Below, in pieces: positions 3,530 to 21,168 of a DNA stretch of 33,427 nt. The notes beneath the pieces are model-generated. The model searched no databases. It had not been told where the DNA came from and saw only the letters and a program-made list of their open reading frames with translations. Position 1 is the first letter of the stretch; each line of letters opens with the position of its first letter. The DNA comes from a virus. The stretch is taken from IMG/VR virus record IMGVR_UViG_3300046000_007766, positions 1 to 33,427 of that record; one strand, given 5' to 3'. Position numbers and translations under genes: made by a program.

Positions 3530-3615
3530 GCTGCTGTGGTGAAATAGGTAGACACGAGGGACTTAAAATCCCTTGACCAGTGATGGTCGTGCCGGTTCGA
3601 TTCCGGCCAGCAGTA
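3530..3615 (+). tRNA. tRNA-Leu(TAA)
   Basis: 86 bases, class II. Acceptor GCTGCTG pairs with CAGCAGT (one G.T pair), anticodon loop CTTAAAA gives TAA, a long variable arm follows, and the T-loop is TTCGATT in a 5-bp GCCGG/CCGGC stem. Reads UUA, the main Leu codon of the phage genes. CCA is not encoded (A then CA). First gene of the array. Confidence 0.95.
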
Positions 3616-3635
3616 CAAAAACGTTCTTTAACATA

Positions 3636-3735
3636 TTGGTGGTAGTTAGACGAAAATGGAATTCCTGCTGTGATGTTAACTTAATCAGCATATTCAGAAG
3701 TAGAAATGAGGTACCGCAAATTCCTCGCCACCTAA
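3636..3735 (+). ncRNA. Structured spacer between tRNA-Leu and tRNA-Arg
   Basis: A possible closing stem TTGGTGG (3636-3642) with CCACCTAA (3728-3735, one bulged T) ends exactly 5 bases before tRNA-Arg. Inside are an interrupted stem TGC/TGAT with ATCA/GCA and GAGG/CCTC. The 3' end carries CGCCACCTAACT (3726-3737), an exact reverse complement of the first 12 bases of the Leu-like tRNA at 4732, so part of this spacer may be an inverted tRNA-like remnant. No coding sequence seen. Confidence 0.35.
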
Positions 3736-3740
3736 CTTAT

Positions 3741-3814
3741 GGTTCGATAGCTCAGCTGGATAGAGCAACAGCCTTCTAAGCTGTTGGTCACAGGTTCGAA
3801 TCCTGTTCGAATCA
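3741..3814 (+). tRNA. tRNA-Arg(TCT)
   Basis: 74 bases. Acceptor GGTTCGA pairs with TCGAATC, D-arm contains AGCTCAGCTGGATAGAGC, anticodon loop CTTCTAA gives TCT, T-loop TTCGAAT. Reads AGA, the dominant Arg codon of the phage. Confidence 0.95.
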
Positions 3815-3816
3815 CT

Positions 3817-3939
3817 AAGAGAGACAGTGAAGCTGTAATTGAGAAGTAGAGTGTATTAATTGCTGAAAAAGGGTTTATATTAGGTAGGCGTCACTCATTG
3901 CACTCAATCAGAAACCCTGAAAGACCCGAAGTCTCTCTT
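3817..3939 (+). ncRNA. Structured RNA between tRNA-Arg and tRNA-Tyr
   Basis: A 9-bp stem AAGAGAGAC (3817-3825) with GTCTCTCTT (3931-3939) encloses about 105 bases and ends exactly 5 bases before tRNA-Tyr. Inside, AGGGTTT (3870-3876) pairs with AAACCCT (3912-3918). In the loop of that stem, CTCAAT (3903-3908) is complementary to ATTGAG (3838-3843) outside it, which would make a pseudoknot. T-rich sequence follows the stem. No coding sequence. Confidence 0.45.
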
Positions 3940-3944
3940 TTTAT

Positions 3945-4027
3945 TGGAAGGTGGGTGAGTGGTTAAAACCGGCAGACTGTAAATCTGCTCCCTTACGGGT
4001 ACGGCGGTTCGAATCCGTCCCTTCCAA
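3945..4027 (+). tRNA. tRNA-Tyr(GTA)
   Basis: 83 bases, class II. Acceptor TGGAAGG pairs with CCTTCCA, D-stem GGT/ACC, anticodon region CAGACTGTAAATCTG gives GTA, a variable arm of CCC/GGG type, T-loop TTCGAAT. The U1-A72 pair is unusual for tRNA-Tyr, which normally begins with G; shifting the register by one loses a base pair. Confidence 0.92.
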
Positions 4028-4035
4028 CTAAACCT

Positions 4036-4112
4036 TGGCGTGTATCTCCTCAAGCTTATACCTTGTAGAAAGAGTAATTGGTCACATGAGAGTTCAAGTC
4101 TCTCCCCGCCAA
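4036..4112 (+). pseudogene. Decayed tRNA-like sequence
   Basis: TGGCGTG (4036-4042) pairs with CCCGCCA (4105-4111) except for one T/C mismatch, and a perfect T-arm GAGAG-TTCAAGT-CTCTC lies at 4088-4104, preceded by a TGGTCACAT variable-like segment. Between them no normal D-arm or anticodon arm can be folded. It follows tRNA-Tyr by 8 bases. It is either a decayed tRNA or a tRNA-like RNA with a changed central part. Confidence 0.4.
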
Positions 4113-4124
4113 CCTTTTATTAAA

Positions 4125-4156
4125 TTTGGAAATCAAAAAATTATTTTATATATTTA
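4125..4156 (+). promoter_or_regulatory. Promoter inside the tRNA array
   Basis: TTTGG at 4125-4129 and TATATTTA at 4149-4156, same 24-base pitch as the others and one of the two best matches in the window. It lies 32 bases before the lipoprotein start at 4189, and could also boost transcription of the downstream tRNAs. Confidence 0.75.
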
Positions 4157-4188
4157 TATAACACAAATATTAATTAATAAAAATAAAA

Positions 4189-4350
4189 ATGAAAAACGTA
4201 ATTTTCGCTTTGATCGCAGTCGCTACTTTGGCTGCTTGCTCAAACAGCACTGAGACTGCTGCTTGTGATTCATGTGCTACTGATTCTACTATGGTTGATT
4301 CAACTGTAGTTGATTCTATGGCTATTGATAGTTCAGTAGTTACAGAATAA
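4189..4350 (+). CDS. Small lipoprotein with DS repeats
   Basis: 53 residues starting at the ATG at 4189. MKNVIFALIAVATLAAC is a lipoprotein signal with lipobox LAAC (Cys17). The mature part is Ser/Thr/Asp/Val-rich: from residue 30 it has a 5-residue period, ATDST, MVDST, VVDSM, AIDSS, then VVTE. DST, DST and DSM fit the D-(S/T)-(A/I/L/M/T/V) O-glycosylation sequon known from Bacteroides. Similar tiny D-S-T lipoproteins are, as I recall, common in Bacteroidota hosts, so this is probably a host-derived 'moron' gene. It has its own promoter and is followed by tRNA spacer. Function unknown; envelope modification or superinfection exclusion would be possible. Confidence 0.8.
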   Translation: MKNVIFALIAVATLAACSNSTETAACDSCATDSTMVDSTVVDSMAIDSSVVTE

Positions 4351-4461
4351 TACTGAGTCTAGCCAAAAAATCCTGTTGCACTCGAACAGGTTGACCTCGG
4401 GGAAAAGTTAAAAAGGGGGAGTACGTGAACCGATATCGTCTTAGAACAAACCTCCCTATAA
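4351..4461 (+). other. Spacer before tRNA-Thr
   Basis: No coding sequence. GGGGG (4415-4419) can pair with CTCCC (4452-4456, one G.T), ending exactly 5 bases before tRNA-Thr, as in the other long spacers. The hairpin described at 4366-4390 lies in its first half. Confidence 0.35.
4366..4390 (-). terminator. Possible minus-strand terminator
   Basis: CCTGTT (4372-4377) pairs with AACAGG (4385-4390) across a 7-base loop, and six A's precede it on the + strand. Read on the minus strand this is a hairpin followed by T6. No minus-strand gene is known here, so it would only stop antisense transcription, or the match is chance. Confidence 0.3.
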
Positions 4462-4534
4462 GCCACCTTAGCTCAGTTGGTAGAGCTACTGATTTGTAAT
4501 CAGTAGGTCGGCGGTTCGAGTCCGTCAGGTGGCT
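4462..4534 (+). tRNA. tRNA-Thr(TGT)
   Basis: 73 bases. Acceptor GCCACCT/AGGTGGC, D-arm TTAGCTCAGTTGGTAGAGC, anticodon loop TTTGTAA gives TGT, T-loop TTCGAGT. Reads ACA. Followed after only 6 bases (CAAAAT) by tRNA-Met. Confidence 0.95.
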
Positions 4535-4540
4535 CAAAAT

Positions 4541-4612
4541 TGTGGGATAGAGCAGTGGTAGCTTGTTGGGCTCATAACCCAAAGGTCGGAGGTTCGAATC
4601 CTTCTCCCGCAA
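4541..4612 (+). tRNA. tRNA-Met(CAT), initiator-like anticodon stem
   Basis: 72 bases. Acceptor TGTGGGA/TCCCGCA, anticodon loop CTCATAA gives CAT, T-loop TTCGAAT. The anticodon stem has three consecutive G:C pairs (GGG/CCC) as in initiator tRNAs, but position 1 pairs with 72 (T-A), which bacterial initiators usually avoid. It may be an initiator or an elongator; a CAT anticodon could also be modified to read AUA. Confidence 0.9.
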
Positions 4613-4731
4613 CAAAAGCCCGAAGTACAAGGGAACGAAGATAGAGTAAGTCCTCTACGAAAGTATGAACCTCTCCAAATCGTGTGTTGGCACAGTTAGC
4701 AACTCTGGGGGTAATCTAAAAGTTGCAAAAT
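4613..4731 (+). other. Structured spacer before Leu-like tRNA 1
   Basis: 119 bases without coding sequence. Hairpins seen: TAGAG/CTCTA around 4644-4660 and GCAACT (4699-4704) with AGTTGC (4721-4726). The second ends exactly 5 bases (AAAAT) before the next tRNA-like gene. Confidence 0.35.
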
Positions 4732-4837
4732 AGTTAGGTGGCGGAATGGTAGACGCAAGGATAAGTGGTGAGGTGAGGCGGGTAATCCACCGTAGATACC
4801 ATATCCACGTATACAGGTTCGAATCCTGTCCTGACTA
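4732..4837 (+). tRNA. Leu-like tRNA with extended central arm (106 bases)
   Basis: Acceptor AGTTAGG pairs with CCTGACT, the D-arm GCGGAATGGTAGACGC is of tRNA-Leu type, and the T-arm is ACAGG-TTCGAAT-CCTGT. In place of a normal 17-base anticodon arm there is a long rod: GGATA/TATCC, then TGGT/ACCA, then GGTG/CACC around a loop of about 12 bases. No 7-base loop with U33 and a Leu anticodon can be found. It may carry an insertion that is removed, be a non-translating tRNA-like RNA, or be decayed. Its ends are nearly the same as those of the element at 4923. Confidence 0.6.
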
Positions 4838-4841
4838 CAAC

Positions 4842-4917
4842 GTGTTGTTCCCTTGAGAAAGGAATGTTATAAGTGGTTTTGACTGAGTACCAACAACACT
4901 AAGGACTTCTCATCCTT
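4842..4917 (+). ncRNA. Structured spacer with possible kissing loops
   Basis: GTGTTGTT (4842-4849) can pair with AACAACAC (4892-4899). Alternatively TTCC/GGAA (4848-4851 with 4861-4864) exposes TGAGAA (4854-4859) in its loop, and hairpin AAGGA/TCCTT (4901-4905 with 4913-4917) exposes the complementary TTCTCA (4907-4912). The last hairpin ends exactly 5 bases before the next tRNA-like gene. No coding sequence. Confidence 0.35.
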
Positions 4918-4922
4918 AAAAT

Positions 4923-5053
4923 AGTCAGGTGGCGGAATTGGTTAGACGCTACATAGATAGTCAACTACAACTGTAATAAACCCGCTGGCCACGGTTAATA
5001 AGAACAGCTCTGTCGTAGAGGTTGACATACAGGTTCGAATCCTGTCCTGATTA
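4923..5053 (+). tRNA. Leu-like tRNA with very large central domain (131 bases)
   Basis: Acceptor AGTCAGG/CCTGATT, Leu-type D-arm GCGGAATTGGTTAGACGC, T-arm ACAGG-TTCGAAT-CCTGT, all close to the element at 4732. The centre (about 75 bases) folds into nested stems: GTCAAC with GTTGAC, continued by TAC/GTA, then CTGT/ACAG, then ATAAACC with GGTTAAT (one mismatch). Only about 10 bases lie between the D-arm and this rod, too few for an anticodon arm. No credible anticodon is seen. It is likely a tRNA-like RNA, or a tRNA with an insertion. Confidence 0.6.
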
Positions 5054-5062
5054 CAAAATCCA

Positions 5063-5141
5063 GTGTTCGTGAGGTGTAAGCAACAGGAACGAAAACACCC
5101 TCATTAAATATGTTGCACGTGTAAGTAATGGAACCTTACAC
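5063..5141 (+). other. Structured spacer before tRNA-Ser
   Basis: Two hairpins and no coding sequence: GTGTTCGT (5063-5070) with ACGAAAACAC (5089-5098, bulged), and a 7-bp GTGTAAG (5119-5125) with CTTACAC (5135-5141). The second ends exactly 5 bases before tRNA-Ser. Confidence 0.4.
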
Positions 5142-5146
5142 AAATC

Positions 5147-5231
5147 GGAAGATTGGCAGAGTGGTCGATCGCGGCAGTCTTGAAAACTGTTGAACCGAAA
5201 GGTTCCGTAGGTTCGAATCCTACATCTTCCG
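5147..5231 (+). tRNA. tRNA-Ser(TGA)
   Basis: 85 bases, class II. Acceptor GGAAGAT/ATCTTCC, discriminator G as usual for Ser, anticodon loop CTTGAAA gives TGA, variable arm GAACC-GAAA-GGTTC, T-loop TTCGAAT. Reads UCA, very frequent in the tail genes. Confidence 0.95.
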
Positions 5232-5337
5232 CACCTTAATACCAATTCAGGTTCGTGAACAAAGGAGGCCTGTTCTTCTCGTGTAAGAAAGAAATCACGT
5301 TAAATCTCCTCATGCTAGGTGGAGGTGGTGACCTAGC
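5232..5337 (+). other. Structured spacer before tRNA-Gln
   Basis: No coding sequence. GAACA/TGTTC and CGTG/CACG hairpins are possible in the first half, and a clear 7-bp GCTAGGT (5314-5320) with ACCTAGC (5331-5337) ends exactly 5 bases before tRNA-Gln. Confidence 0.4.
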
Positions 5338-5342
5338 AACAT

Positions 5343-5413
5343 TACCCTCTCGTCTAACGGCAGGACAACTGGTTTTGGTCCAGTTAATTGGAGTTCGAAT
5401 CTCTGGGGGGTAA
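5343..5413 (+). tRNA. tRNA-Gln(TTG)
   Basis: 71 bases. Acceptor TACCCTC/GGGGGTA (one T.G), D-stem GTC/GAC, anticodon loop TTTTGGT gives TTG, T-loop TTCGAAT. Reads CAA. tRNA-Glu follows after 7 bases. Confidence 0.93.
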
Positions 5414-5420
5414 CAAAAAT

Positions 5421-5492
5421 GCTCGGTTCGTCTATCGGTTAGGACACCAGGTTTTCATCCTGGTAAGAGGGGTTCGATTCCCCTACCGAGTA
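5421..5492 (+). tRNA. tRNA-Glu(TTC)
   Basis: 72 bases. Acceptor GCTCGGT/ACCGAGT (one G.T), anticodon loop TTTTCAT gives TTC, T-stem AGGGG/CCCCT with loop TTCGATT. Reads GAA. Last tRNA of the array; the 87 bases after it hold the AT-rich leader of the secreted-protein gene, with no clear promoter box. Confidence 0.95.
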
Positions 5493-5579
5493 CAAATTCA
5501 AAAAAATTTTTCAATATGTATAAAGGACAATAGTGGTTTTTTCTAAGTGTTATTTGTTATTAATAACTTAAAACCAAAA

Positions 5580-7475
5580 ATGAAAAAACTAATTTTATCT
5601 TTAATGACCATGTTTATGGTCTTTTCTGCTTTTTCGCAGACTGTTCCTCCCGCTCCTGGTACAGGTAGATGGGTAATTGTAGACACAAATTACACAGTTG
5701 GTACATCTTCAGCTGGTGTTACTAAAGCAAATCTTTACTATCGAAACAACACAAGTACTAAAATTACTGGTATGCAGTTTCGTGTTTGGTATGATAAAGA
5801 TGCCTTTAATGGTTCTGCTCCTACGGTTGCTTTAAAATATGGTGCTACGGACCAATATATGCAGTATGTTACTAACACTACAGAAGGCAATATTACTGTA
5901 ACATTGGTTTATACTGGTACTAGTTCCACTTTTTCATATTCTGATGGTGCTGCTGTTGAAGTAACTTTAACACACGCGTCTGCAGCTACTTGGAATACTT
6001 TAGATAGTATTAAAACTATGAAAATTACAGGTACTACTACATTTAATAACTTAGCTGCTACTAATTACGGTAATGATACTACAATGACAGTTTATTCTTA
6101 TGGTGGTAACTTTATTCAACGTAAATTAACTTTTAAAGGTCGTTTCTTAACAGCTGCTGGTGATGGTGCTAAAAACTTATGGATTTCATTAGAAAAGAAA
6201 CCTAAAACAGGTTCAACTTGGACTACTGTAAACACATACAAGACTAATACTGCTGGTAGATTTAACTTTACAGAAACTTTAGATACAACATATTGGGATA
6301 CTCGTATTGCAATTAAAGGAGATACAATGTCTTATGGTAATGCTTTATCAACAGCAGACGCTCAAAAGATTAACCAAGTAATGTTAGGTCAATATACACC
6401 AACGGGATTTGATTTTTATGCAATGGATGTAAATGGAAATAATAGTATTACAATTGCAGATGCTTATTCTGTATTTGGTAATATTGCTGGTAGATTTACT
6501 TCATGGCCAAATAGTGTTCAAAACTTATTGTTCTTTACCAAAACTGAAAGAGATTCTATTAATGGTAAAACAGTAAGCAAAGCTGCTACAATTCCTGGTG
6601 CTACAAACTTCACACACTATATTAATGGTGGTGTTGATTCAGTTACATATTATGTAGTAGTTAAAGGTGATGCTAATTCAACTGGATTTAAAATGGCTCG
6701 TTTAACACCTATTAGAATTGTCAACCCAGCTAATGCTAACAGATATATTATAGATAATACCGTTCAATATGATAACGTTTTACAGACTATCGAAGTTAAC
6801 ATGCCTAAAATCAATGTTGAAGAAGGTAATTTAGTAAATATTCCTGTTAAAGTGTTTACAAATGGTAAAACATTAGGTGCATTACAATTAGATTTAAAAT
6901 ATGATACTGATTTACTTGAATTTAGAAAAGTAGAAAATAGTGAAAAAGCTATGAAATGGATCTCGTATGTAAACCCATCAAATGGTATTGTATCTTGGGG
7001 TGGATTTGATATACAAAATTCAAACATGTTAAATGATGGAGATCAAGTATTTACCTTACAATTTGTAGCTAAAAAACCTCAATCTGAGTGGGGTACTGCC
7101 GCCGTATGGACTGGCGAAAAATACGTGGGAGATAACGTCTCTAAAGACATGAATATAACTCCTGCAATGGGTATTATTGAGGTAAGAAAAATGGCTTATA
7201 GACCAAAAATTAATCCTGAATTATTTGAATTAAGAGCTACTCCTAATCCAAATGATGGCAATATGGTAATTAATTTTAACATTTTAGAAGAAGGAAAAAC
7301 TGAGGTTTCTATTTTTAATATGCAAGGACAAAAGGTAATTGAAGTTGTTAACGAAAACATGCCTAAAGGTGAATATGTATACTCAGTAAATTCATTATTA
7401 CCCGCAGGTATTTATTATGCCTCTGTAAATAATAATGGAAATTTTGCTACAAATAAAATTTTAATTAATAAATAA
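5580..7475 (+). CDS. Secreted cohesin/dockerin-like protein with T9SS sorting domain
   Basis: 631 residues from the ATG at 5580; the GTG at 5547 would only add residues before a clear signal peptide (residues 1-20, ending AFSQ). Domains: cohesin-like beta-sandwich (about 30-178); carboxypeptidase-regulatory-like beta domain (180-250); dockerin-like region (257-306) with a calcium-loop pattern at D283, N285, N287, D294; second cohesin-like domain (400-537: NIPVKVFTNGKTLGALQLDL..YDTDLLEF); and a type A T9SS C-terminal domain (549-631) with PNPNDG, VSIFNMQGQKV, AGIYYASV and terminal KILINK. Known T9SS substrates with this tail cross the outer membrane and become surface-attached or secreted. The phage would therefore use the host T9SS. 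Stop overlaps the next start (TAATG). Confidence 0.85.
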   Translation: MKKLILSLMTMFMVFSAFSQTVPPAPGTGRWVIVDTNYTVGTSSAGVTKANLYYRNNTSTKITGMQFRVWYDKDAFNGSAPTVALKYGATDQYMQYVTNTTEGNITVTLVYTGTSSTFSYSDGAAVEVTLTHASAATWNTLDSIKTMKITGTTTFNNLAATNYGNDTTMTVYSYGGNFIQRKLTFKGRFLTAAGDGAKNLWISLEKKPKTGSTWTTVNTYKTNTAGRFNFTETLDTTYWDTRIAIKGDTMSYGNALSTADAQKINQVMLGQYTPTGFDFYAMDVNGNNSITIADAYSVFGNIAGRFTSWPNSVQNLLFFTKTERDSINGKTVSKAATIPGATNFTHYINGGVDSVTYYVVVKGDANSTGFKMARLTPIRIVNPANANRYIIDNTVQYDNVLQTIEVNMPKINVEEGNLVNIPVKVFTNGKTLGALQLDLKYDTDLLEFRKVENSEKAMKWISYVNPSNGIVSWGGFDIQNSNMLNDGDQVFTLQFVAKKPQSEWGTAAVWTGEKYVGDNVSKDMNITPAMGIIEVRKMAYRPKINPELFELRATPNPNDGNMVINFNILEEGKTEVSIFNMQGQKVIEVVNENMPKGEYVYSVNSLLPAGIYYASVNNNGNFATNKILINK

Positions 7476-18902: not shown

Positions 18903-19309
18903 TGGCATTTGGAGCAAAGAAAATATTCCCTATAGATACTAAACCAGGCACTGGTGTTGGTGTTGCTATTCCTTTCAATGCTCCTGGTGTTTTTAAAATT
19001 ACTTATACTACAAGAGAAGCTACTAAATCTAATTTAATTAATTTCTTTTTAACTAATAAAGGAGAAAGATATTTAAACCCAATTTTTGGAGGAGATTTAC
19101 GAGCATTTATTTTCCAACAAATTACTACAGGGAATTTAGATTCTCTTAAACAAGATATCCAATACCAGTTAAGTGTATATTTCCCTCAAGTTGTTATATA
19201 TTCATTAGATATAACATCATCAGAAGATTATAATCAAGTTAACGTAATTTTAAAATATAACATAAAAGATACAGGTTTATCTGACATCGTAGAAATAGTA
19301 TTTACATAA
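18902..19309 (+). CDS. gp25-like baseplate wedge protein
   Basis: 135 residues, the normal size for gp25. Key features are NLINFFLTNKGERYLNPIFG, GGDLRAFIFQQIT and a C-terminal strand set (VNVILKYNIKDTGLSDIVEI). gp25 is the wedge protein that starts sheath polymerisation and is conserved in myoviruses, type VI secretion systems and other contractile systems. Coupled by TAATG to its usual partner gp6. Confidence 0.88.
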   Translation: MAFGAKKIFPIDTKPGTGVGVAIPFNAPGVFKITYTTREATKSNLINFFLTNKGERYLNPIFGGDLRAFIFQQITTGNLDSLKQDIQYQLSVYFPQVVIYSLDITSSEDYNQVNVILKYNIKDTGLSDIVEIVFT

Positions 19310-21168
19310 TGGCAACCAAAAGAAAAAATATCCAATATATTAACAGGGATTTTAGTGAAATAAGAGCTAGTCTTATTGATTATGCTAAAACTTATTTCCC
19401 TACAACCTACAATGATTTTACTCCAGCATCACCTGGTATGATGTTTATGGAAATGGCTGCTTATGTAGGTGATGTAATGTCTTTTTATCTTGATAATCAA
19501 GTTCAAGAAACATATTTACAATACGCTCGCCAAACAAATAACTTGTATGAGTTAGCTTATATGTTTGGTTATAAACCAAATGTAACTCAAGTAGCAACAA
19601 CTTATATAGATTTTTATCAACAAGTTCCTGCTCAACCATCATCTCCATATTCTCCGGATTTTACATATGCTTTATTTATTGATCAAAATGCACAAATCCA
19701 ATCAGCTACTAATCCTAATGTAACATTCTTAGTAGAAGACCCAATAGATTTTAGTGTTTCATCTTCAGGAGATCCTACGGAAGTATCTATTTTTAGTATA
19801 GATGGAAGTAATAACCCAACATATTATCTTTTAAAGAAAACACGTAAAGCTATTTCTTCAACAATTAATACAACTACCTTTACGTTTGGTGCACCACAAC
19901 AATTTTCTACCGTTGAAATTAATGCTCCAAAAATTGTTGGTATTTTAGATATATTCGATACTGATAGTAATGAATGGTATGAAGTAGATTATTTAGCTCA
20001 AGAATGTATTTATAAATCAATAAAAAATACAAATCCAAATTCACCTAATCTTTCACAATATAAGGGTGATACACCTTATCTTCTTCAATTAGAACAGATC
20101 CAAAGAAGATTTATTACAAGATTTATCAATTCAGGATCTCTACAATTACAATTTGGCGCTGGCACAGCAGCTGATACAGATGAAACAATTATCCCTAATC
20201 CTAATAATGTTGGTTTAGGTTTACCGTTTGAAAAGACTAAGTTGACAACAGCTTATGCTCCTTCAAACTTTATATTTACTAAAACTTATGGTATTGCACC
20301 TTCACAAACTACTTTAACAGTTAGATATTTAACAGGTGGTGGAGTTGAAGCAAATGTTCAATCAAATGATTTAACAAATTTAACAGCAAACATATCCTTT
20401 TTAAATTCAAGTTTAAATGCAACAACAGCACAAACGGTATTTGATTCTCTAGCAGTCACAAACCCAGAAGCAGCTGATGGAGGAGGAGATGGAGATACAA
20501 TTGAGGAATTAAGACAAAACACCTCAGCAAACTTTGCAACACAATTACGTAACGTAACTCAAGATGATTATTTAGTAAGATCATTATCAATGCCTGCTAA
20601 ATATGGGGTTGTATCAAAAGCTTATATTGAACCAACTAAAGCACTTACTTTATCTGCTGGTGAATCTAATTCCGTATTAGACTTGTATATATTGTCATAT
20701 AACGTAAACAATCAATTAAACACAGCGTCTACTGCTTTAAAGCAAAATTTAACTACATACCTATCTCAATATAGAATGATTAATGATGCTGTTTCTATTA
20801 AAGATGCATTTATCATCAACATTGGAGTAAATTTTGATATTATTGTCCTCCCAGAATTTAATAGTAATCAAGTATTATTTGATTGTATTACAGCATTAAA
20901 GGATTATTTTGCAATTGATAAATGGCAAATTAATCAACCTATTATATTAAGAGATATTTATATCCTTTTAGATAAAATTACAGGTGTTCAAACTGTTAAA
21001 AATATTGAAATTTCAAATTTAACAGGAACTAATTTAGGATACTCAGTATATTCCTATGATATAAACGCAGCAACAATTTCAAATGTGATTTATCCTTCAC
21101 TTGATCCTTCAATATTTGAAGTAAAATATCCAAACACAGATATTCAAGGTAGAGTAGTAAATTTATAA
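19309..21168 (+). CDS. gp6-like baseplate wedge protein (Baseplate_J family)
   Basis: 619 residues, close to T4 gp6 in size. N-terminus IQYINRDFSEIRASLIDYAK, TPASPGMMFMEMAAYVGDVM and SFYLDNQVQETYL are characteristic of gp6. In the middle, EELRQNTSANFATQLRNVT followed by DDYLVRSLSMPAKYG is the Baseplate_J signature. The C-terminal quarter has the usual FDIIVLPEFN and QINQPIILRDIYILLD strands. gp6 dimers form the inner ring of the baseplate and contact gp25 and gp53. Confidence 0.88.
   Translation: MATKRKNIQYINRDFSEIRASLIDYAKTYFPTTYNDFTPASPGMMFMEMAAYVGDVMSFYLDNQVQETYLQYARQTNNLYELAYMFGYKPNVTQVATTYIDFYQQVPAQPSSPYSPDFTYALFIDQNAQIQSATNPNVTFLVEDPIDFSVSSSGDPTEVSIFSIDGSNNPTYYLLKKTRKAISSTINTTTFTFGAPQQFSTVEINAPKIVGILDIFDTDSNEWYEVDYLAQECIYKSIKNTNPNSPNLSQYKGDTPYLLQLEQIQRRFITRFINSGSLQLQFGAGTAADTDETIIPNPNNVGLGLPFEKTKLTTAYAPSNFIFTKTYGIAPSQTTLTVRYLTGGGVEANVQSNDLTNLTANISFLNSSLNATTAQTVFDSLAVTNPEAADGGGDGDTIEELRQNTSANFATQLRNVTQDDYLVRSLSMPAKYGVVSKAYIEPTKALTLSAGESNSVLDLYILSYNVNNQLNTASTALKQNLTTYLSQYRMINDAVSIKDAFIINIGVNFDIIVLPEFNSNQVLFDCITALKDYFAIDKWQINQPIILRDIYILLDKITGVQTVKNIEISNLTGTNLGYSVYSYDINAATISNVIYPSLDPSIFEVKYPNTDIQGRVVNL

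Follow-up and report, generated by a model that had tools for sequence, protein, structure and literature searches.

What are two RNA genes that have the ends and the elbow of a leucine tRNA and no anticodon between them? The question is posed by a 33,427-base virus record in IMG/VR (IMGVR_UViG_3300046000_007766), the whole of which we call the window, where two elements on the plus strand, A (4732–4837) and B (4923–5053), sit within an array of tRNA genes. A sequence-only reading had noted that the two share an acceptor, a Leu-type D-arm and a T-arm around centres of about 50 and about 80 bases that lack a recognisable anticodon loop. It offered two interpretations, namely elements inserted into the anticodon arm of a tRNA-Leu, or tRNA mimics that keep the elbow and acceptor and do not decode. 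Our analysis, which rests on sequence comparison, supports the second. In A and B, by this evidence, a structured RNA takes the place of the anticodon arm between the otherwise retained ends and elbow of a leucine tRNA, and both belong to a large and apparently undescribed family of phage RNAs.

Anatomy of A and B and the size of their family

A has a 7-bp acceptor stem (AGTTAGG/CCTGACT, with one G-U pair), a 3-bp Leu-type D-stem (GCG/CGC), a D-loop with G18G19, and a T-arm (ACAGG-TTCGAAT-CCTGT) that occupies 4813–4837 together with the 3' acceptor strand and A73. B pairs AGTCAGG with CCTGATT in its acceptor and has the same D-stem and T-arm (with the 3' acceptor strand and A73, 5029–5053), making the two frames near-identical. 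The cores that stand in place of the anticodon and variable arms show no evident similarity to each other: that of A spans 56 nt (4757–4812) and that of B 79 nt (4950–5028), the latter closed by a stem (GTCAAC/GTTGAC) 2 nt 5' of the T-stem. Inspection and pairing thus bear out the shared ends, and neither centre holds a decoding arm. The description of the centres as long rods was the weaker part of the sequence-only reading. The folding energies of the single elements were no better than those of shuffles (A, cut at 4829, z = -1.26; B, z = -0.39).

ARAGORN found eight ordinary tRNAs in the window and skipped both A and B. With introns allowed or thresholds relaxed, its calls at the two elements were contradictory and of low quality: Gly(acc) and Thr(ggt) with 'introns', Trp(cca) and mt-Ser(cga). 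At the gathering threshold, Rfam matched neither element with its tRNA model or with any other family. Under permissive filters, RF00005 scored 39.8 bits on A, covering the whole model and so leaving the core as an insertion, and gave nothing on B.

We scanned viral contigs with two patterns, one fixing the D-arm, the last acceptor base, the T-loop and a gap of 54–84 nt without demanding acceptor pairing, the other admitting shorter cores behind the acceptor AGTCAGG. Each returned at least 120 stretches, for a total of at least 237 distinct IMG/VR stretches, and 112 of the 122 matches listed from the first scan had at least 6/7 acceptor pairs and at least 4/5 T-stem pairs. By comparison, the AGTCAGG frame start occurred in only five stretches of a bacterial and archaeal genome collection, on contigs of metagenome-assembled genomes of about 6 to 45 kb, one of which also matches the window's first gene (70%). 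The resulting set of 248 records (247 loci plus the window), in which frame and flank-pair counts required pairing, holds 312 frames with 248 distinct cores of about 20–240 nt, 181 behind AGTYAGG acceptors and 67 behind others. ARAGORN called just 54 of the former and 13 of the latter, with erratic anticodons. A broader scan specifying only the T-arm, acceptor pairing and U8 found 324 frames outside ARAGORN tRNAs, whereas the reversed sequence of the same loci (2.26 Mb) gave 21 T-arms and no frame. Frames often sit among phage tRNAs, one to ten per locus; 66 of the 183 records with a frame outside ARAGORN tRNAs have at least two, and one has ten. The open-access literature on anticodon-less or odd phage tRNAs yielded no description of this family.

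The scanned loci held several further variants. Frames in seven loci (L102, L107, L177, L219, L270, L272 and L273) carry a hairpin inserted in the D-loop, which makes this a second variable site. Leu-type frames in L018 (at 6598), L052 and L056 combine a very long variable arm with an arm resembling an anticodon arm (loop CTGTTTA), and are unusual tRNAs. Within a frame-rich tRNA array, the minus strand of L092 (8501–8562) matches the freshwater-1 RNA (RF02979) at 70 bits against a gathering score of 72.

The frame itself is a tRNA frame under selection, as judged from pairing that the first scan left free. Once repeats and a single row truncated at a contig end were removed, 112 distinct cores remained of the 122 rows. 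Among these listed matches, 7/7 acceptor pairing was present in 58 of 65 AGTYAGG members and in 43 of 47 with other acceptors. The latter comprise 39 different sequences, and re-dealing their 3' strands gave 7/7 pairing in 1.7 cases on average. In 140 nonredundant AGTYAGG members, at least two of whose cores read through two adjacent frames (L088, 221 nt; L012, 223 nt), G18G19 was kept in 135, U48 in 131 and A73 in 123. A15 was fixed by the search pattern.

An anticodon arm, in contrast, was no commoner than about twice chance among AGTYAGG cores. A loose test was passed by 7 of the 140, where 64 of 2800 shuffles predict about 3, and by 2 of 54 long cores in other frames, as against 12 of 13 short-core Leu tRNAs. 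Nor was a 27–31/39–43 stem around a long insert enriched (21 of 94 cores versus 25.6 ± 4.0 in shuffled cores). Where an exact 5-bp helix extended to the core's 3' end, its start lay 5–21 nt into the core far more often than expected (96 versus about 22), an excess absent at offsets 0–4 (6 versus 7.5). By inspection, B has no anticodon-stem halves flanking an insert, and A has a shifted GGATA/TATCC pair. Because split stems were not enriched and the helices start at offsets 5–21, the arm is replaced rather than inserted into. This disfavours the first interpretation in the sequence-only reading, as no anticodon stem or loop is left to splice. A normal arm in a missed register was likewise rejected, given the contradictory ARAGORN calls and the near-chance result of the arm test. 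A contrasting case to the frame family lies on the minus strand of L118, from 3471, where a tRNA-Leu(UAA)-like gene has a 241-nt core between anticodon-arm halves that looks, by eye, like a real group I intron.

Structure and exchange of the cores

Across the family, the cores are structured. Many have a helix next to the T-arm, and some may form a pseudoknot. The terminal helix was commoner than chance (mean score of 10.9 versus 9.0 in shuffled and 9.1 in end-swapped cores, sd 0.2). The linker 5' of this helix was modestly complementary to its loop in a pseudoknot-like manner (10.0 versus 9.0 ± 0.27, 51 cores). Covariation could be followed in one set of related cores, the C family, with 21 copies in 20 contigs, of which 15 entered the alignment after exact duplicates were left out by hand. 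The search pattern fixed the linker and part of the loop, whose invariance is therefore no evidence, and left the helix free. Among 14 distinct RNAs, 99.7% of cells over all helices were paired, with 27 double-change cells and 8 pairs having double changes, and none of 500 shuffles did as well. The core helix compensates: a single pair is UA, GC or AU in different members. Covariation is seen in the acceptor and the T-stem as well as in the core helices.

Members with other acceptors led to relatives, most of them unannotated, in cultured T4-like phages and a Bacteroides phage. Searching INPHARED with B or with the L155 frame gave only partial matches, mostly to T-arms, and L110 gave none. Bacteroides phage BS-TP2 has an identical copy of a member whose acceptor is GGTATCG; the copy is unannotated and lies between two protein-coding genes. 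For another member, with CGTTCAG as its acceptor, INPHARED has 119 matching records, and in 71 of these the match covers at least 80% of the member's length. In Klebsiella phage Marfa, this type of frame is unannotated and lies 4 nt 5' of a tRNA-Arg, and elsewhere it is annotated as tRNA-Phe or tRNA-Thr, or overlaps a hypothetical protein. Twelve T4-like phage sequences (from Klebsiella, Edwardsiella, Serratia, Erwinia, Enterobacter and Aeromonas phages) have at least two core types, mostly in the same place. An unforced consensus of 11 of the 12 recovered the acceptor, D and T stems and a core hairpin, with double changes at 13 of 20 pairs. The beta-type core hairpin was one column off in the alignment, and hence the covariation test took only the eight alpha and gamma sequences; in these, 97.9% of cells were paired, 14 of 24 pairs had double changes, and 0 of 500 shuffles were as good. 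The only formal frame at 140000–189999 in Microcystis phage Mel-JY01, a region with no ARAGORN tRNA, looks like a chance match inside a gene.

Looking for the same elements in other phages revealed whole cores in common. All 79 nt of the B core are identical in the window and eight other contigs, although the search pattern fixed just 24 letters. Eight contigs keep the A core, which varies only towards its 3' end (here the pattern fixed 21 letters), and in three of these contigs the D-loop carries a hairpin insert. Some pairs of these copies have homologous flanks, but in most the flanks are unrelated. In L271, a copy of A is identical over 81/81 nt of the D-arm side and core, and from the T-arm onward it continues as the window does downstream of B (216/217), as though recombination between frames had removed, or added, B and the intervening element X. 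Over all loci, counting pairs rather than independent events, 17 pairs have both flanks in common and unrelated cores (for L017 and L257, flanks of 98.3% and 98.3%). Conversely, of 122 pairs from different loci with an identical core of at least 40 nt and sufficiently long flanks, 45 have neither flank in common. The C-family core occurs in AGTCAGG, AGCAAGG and ACGGGGG frames. Together, these sequence comparisons show that each core is conserved as a unit and that phages exchange cores, like cassettes, via the constant frame.

Element X (4838–4922, plus strand), which fills the space between A and B, is by its sequence pattern a second scaffold family with variable cores. Its constant ends (GTGTTGTTCCCTTGAGAAAGG...AACAACAC) and a hairpin surround a variable centre, and two of its loops, TTGAGAAA and CTTCTCA, are complementary and could form a kissing loop. 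We found 18 copies in 16 contigs, 13 of them followed by an AGTCAGG frame 20–23 nt after the closing stem.

Possible roles and known analogues

The best overall explanation, towards which we lean with modest confidence, is that these are non-decoding RNAs, processed as tRNAs and probably leucylated, that display exchangeable structured effectors. Their tRNA ends imply tRNA processing, and host machinery (RNase P, 3' processing and CCA addition) would yield stable small RNAs. According to one report, A73, the A15-U48 pair, G18G19 and A20a matter to E. coli leucyl-tRNA synthetase (LeuRS), which does not use the anticodon and still charges tRNA-Leu without its anticodon and variable arms (PMC9976931). 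Because A73, A15-U48 and G18G19 are retained in the frame and the dispensable arms are missing, a host LeuRS, needing the elbow and A73 but no anticodon arm, is predicted to charge Leu-type members. At the sequence level, GG, U48 and A73 occur together in 111 of the 140. RNAs of the A and B type would not decode.

The remaining steps are the least certain. The frame may be a durable carrier and the exchangeable core the working part, as suggested by the cores being conserved, covarying and exchanged. The core might bind and neutralise or sequester a host factor, for example an RNA-binding protein used in defence, and conflict with hosts would then drive core turnover. Such conflict is our best guess because cores are exchanged and because phage phiTE is reported to block a defence toxin with pseudo-ToxI, a small pseudoknot RNA altered through expansion of its repeats and through recombination (PMC3475682). 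Unlike the frames, pseudo-ToxI and type III antitoxin RNAs are repeats without a tRNA frame. A bolder version, which we consider possible but less likely than not, is that phages keep an arsenal of structured RNA effectors on leucine-charged, non-decoding frames, with the frame acting as processing signal, stabiliser and recombination platform while cores are swapped in an arms race with host defences.

Several observations weigh against the effector explanation. The Leu-type D-arm was partly built into the searches, and the 237 of 324 frames having it in the broader scan come from loci picked by a Leu-type pattern. Leucylation cannot be general, since 82 distinct frames among the 324 are not Leu-type, and 17 of the 140 AGTYAGG members lack A73. 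The pseudoknot excess is modest, and covariation is silent on the folds of the A and B cores because these hardly vary. In six frame-rich loci, Rfam found no known effector RNA, whether a type III antitoxin, a ToxI-like RNA or any other, and it matched no type III antitoxin family on A or B. Beside the arrays, no protein family was shared by more than 4 of 40 loci, and hence none suggests a partner.

Other explanations account for part of the evidence. Were A and B tRNA-Leu genes with small anticodon-loop introns that are spliced into working tRNAs, one would expect the intron-bearing tRNAs that ARAGORN can report at both (option -i) and the GGATA/TATCC pair spanning the core of A. However, those calls are inconsistent, flanking anticodon stems are not enriched, helices begin inside the core rather than at its edge, and many cores are only 20–36 nt, no longer than a normal anticodon plus variable arm. 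We regard splicing as very improbable. Still less credible is that the family consists of decaying tRNA genes whose middles were overwritten by random sequence. Centres that look unrelated and erratic ARAGORN anticodons would fit, but compensatory changes in acceptor, T-stem and core helices would not, nor would identical cores in contigs with unrelated flanks or the near absence of decoding AGTYAGG parents.

Frames might instead act as punctuation, recruiting RNase P and 3' nucleases to free the other RNAs of the array, with the core as mere filler. The window's spacer RNAs do lie between tRNAs or frames, and the regular spacing between the X closing stem and the next frame agrees. Yet a minihelix would suffice for processing, filler would not keep the B core letter-identical in all nine contigs where it was found or make family cores covary, and the frame of phage BS-TP2 stands alone between protein genes. 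We therefore judge this role unlikely. A somewhat smaller probability attaches to decoys, whose tRNA shape would absorb a host enzyme that attacks or modifies tRNA at the acceptor or elbow, with the missing anticodon protecting against anticodon nucleases and the cores mattering for folding only. A near-invariant frame without an anticodon arm is what decoys would need, but conserved and exchanged cores are left unexplained, as is the same C-family core behind three different acceptors.

The closest known analogue of these RNAs is species 1 RNA of phage T4 (RNAC, gene rnaC), likewise a small, stable RNA encoded among phage tRNA genes. Towards its 3' end lie a T-arm, U8 and a stem of 7 nt (CGGAACG/CGTTTCG, one G-U), and this part lacks an anticodon arm. 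Unlike the frames, RNAC has no Leu-type D-arm and is annotated as 139 nt, with about 47 nt lying 5' of the 7-nt stem. Two sources describe it as stable, late, validated by Northern blot and of unknown function (PMC3014915, PMC9697503). The likeness may be one of working alike, and we do not claim common descent.

Other tRNA-like RNAs differ more. The tRNA-like domain of tmRNA has tRNA ends, no anticodon arm and a long helix beside the T-arm. A and B, however, have no tag reading frame, are far shorter and keep a D-stem; a tmRNA identity was rejected, as ARAGORN found none in the window, and the permissive Rfam search gave only a 12.8-bit match to permuted tmRNA elsewhere. The bacterial Y RNA YrlA (RF02553) is a noncoding tRNA mimic and was also rejected, because neither A nor B matched it at E values up to 10; weak matches in frame-rich loci lie across annotated tRNAs. 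GOLLD and ROOL are much larger and have no tRNA frame. These two are described as phage noncoding RNAs near tRNA islands with unknown function (PMC12286853), and Rfam matched neither in the window. In engineered tRNA scaffolds, a foreign RNA is set in the anticodon arm for stability. That design is artificial, and frames like A and B would be its natural counterpart. tRNA-like RNAs are known singly (tmRNA, YrlA, plant-virus ends and T4 RNAC). What appears to be new is a large family in phages that combines a single constant frame with structured cores, interchangeable and numbering in the hundreds; we found no precedent for it in the open-access literature.

These results imply that the phage tRNA counts in the literature, and the phage tRNAs described there as 'odd', need to be reconsidered, because ARAGORN skips most frames or assigns them random anticodons. 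Relatives in cultured T4-like phages and a Bacteroides phage make expression, charging and function testable now, and the role of T4 RNAC becomes an approachable question. If the cores are anti-host effectors, the family would amount to a catalogue of RNA inhibitors of unknown host systems.

Array neighbours and probable host

The array enclosing A and B (3530–5493, plus strand) comprises tRNAs for Leu, Arg, Tyr, Thr, Met, Ser, Gln and Glu, as identified with ARAGORN and Rfam. Several of its spacers recur in other loci. Spacer RNA N1 (3816–3944) has 84–86% identity in L025, L225 and L243 and 74%, with a changed centre, in L134/L199. The spacers at 3639–3731, 4345–4456 and 4674–4721 are kept at 90% in L061/L122, 83% in L134/L199 and 87.5% in L132/L151, respectively. 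Immediately 3' of B, the spacer at 5056–5146, which is also present in L087 and L271, has a possible pseudoknot seen by eye (GAGGTGT/ACACCCTC and GCAACA/TGTTGC). A tRNA-sized stretch at 4036–4113 has an acceptor and T-arm without a normal D-arm, and recurs in L226, L134 and L199 with changes that, by eye, compensate. Between tRNA-Tyr and tRNA-Thr, a small open reading frame (4189–4350) encodes 53 aa with a lipoprotein-like N-terminus.

The window probably derives from a tailed phage of a Bacteroidota host. This assignment is based on a Por_Secre_tail sorting domain in the protein at 5580–7475, on the closest cultured match of the protein at 19309–21168, a baseplate protein of Flavobacterium phage immuto (46%), and on the Chitinophagaceae label of two of the five bacterial genome contigs with a frame. 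A scan for related loci with the window's 469-aa protein found five, none of which extended to the tRNA array. In phage immuto, an annotated tRNA-Cys (L276, 2330–2413) has tRNA ends and receives no ARAGORN call, and it is possibly a cultured relative close to the window's phage.
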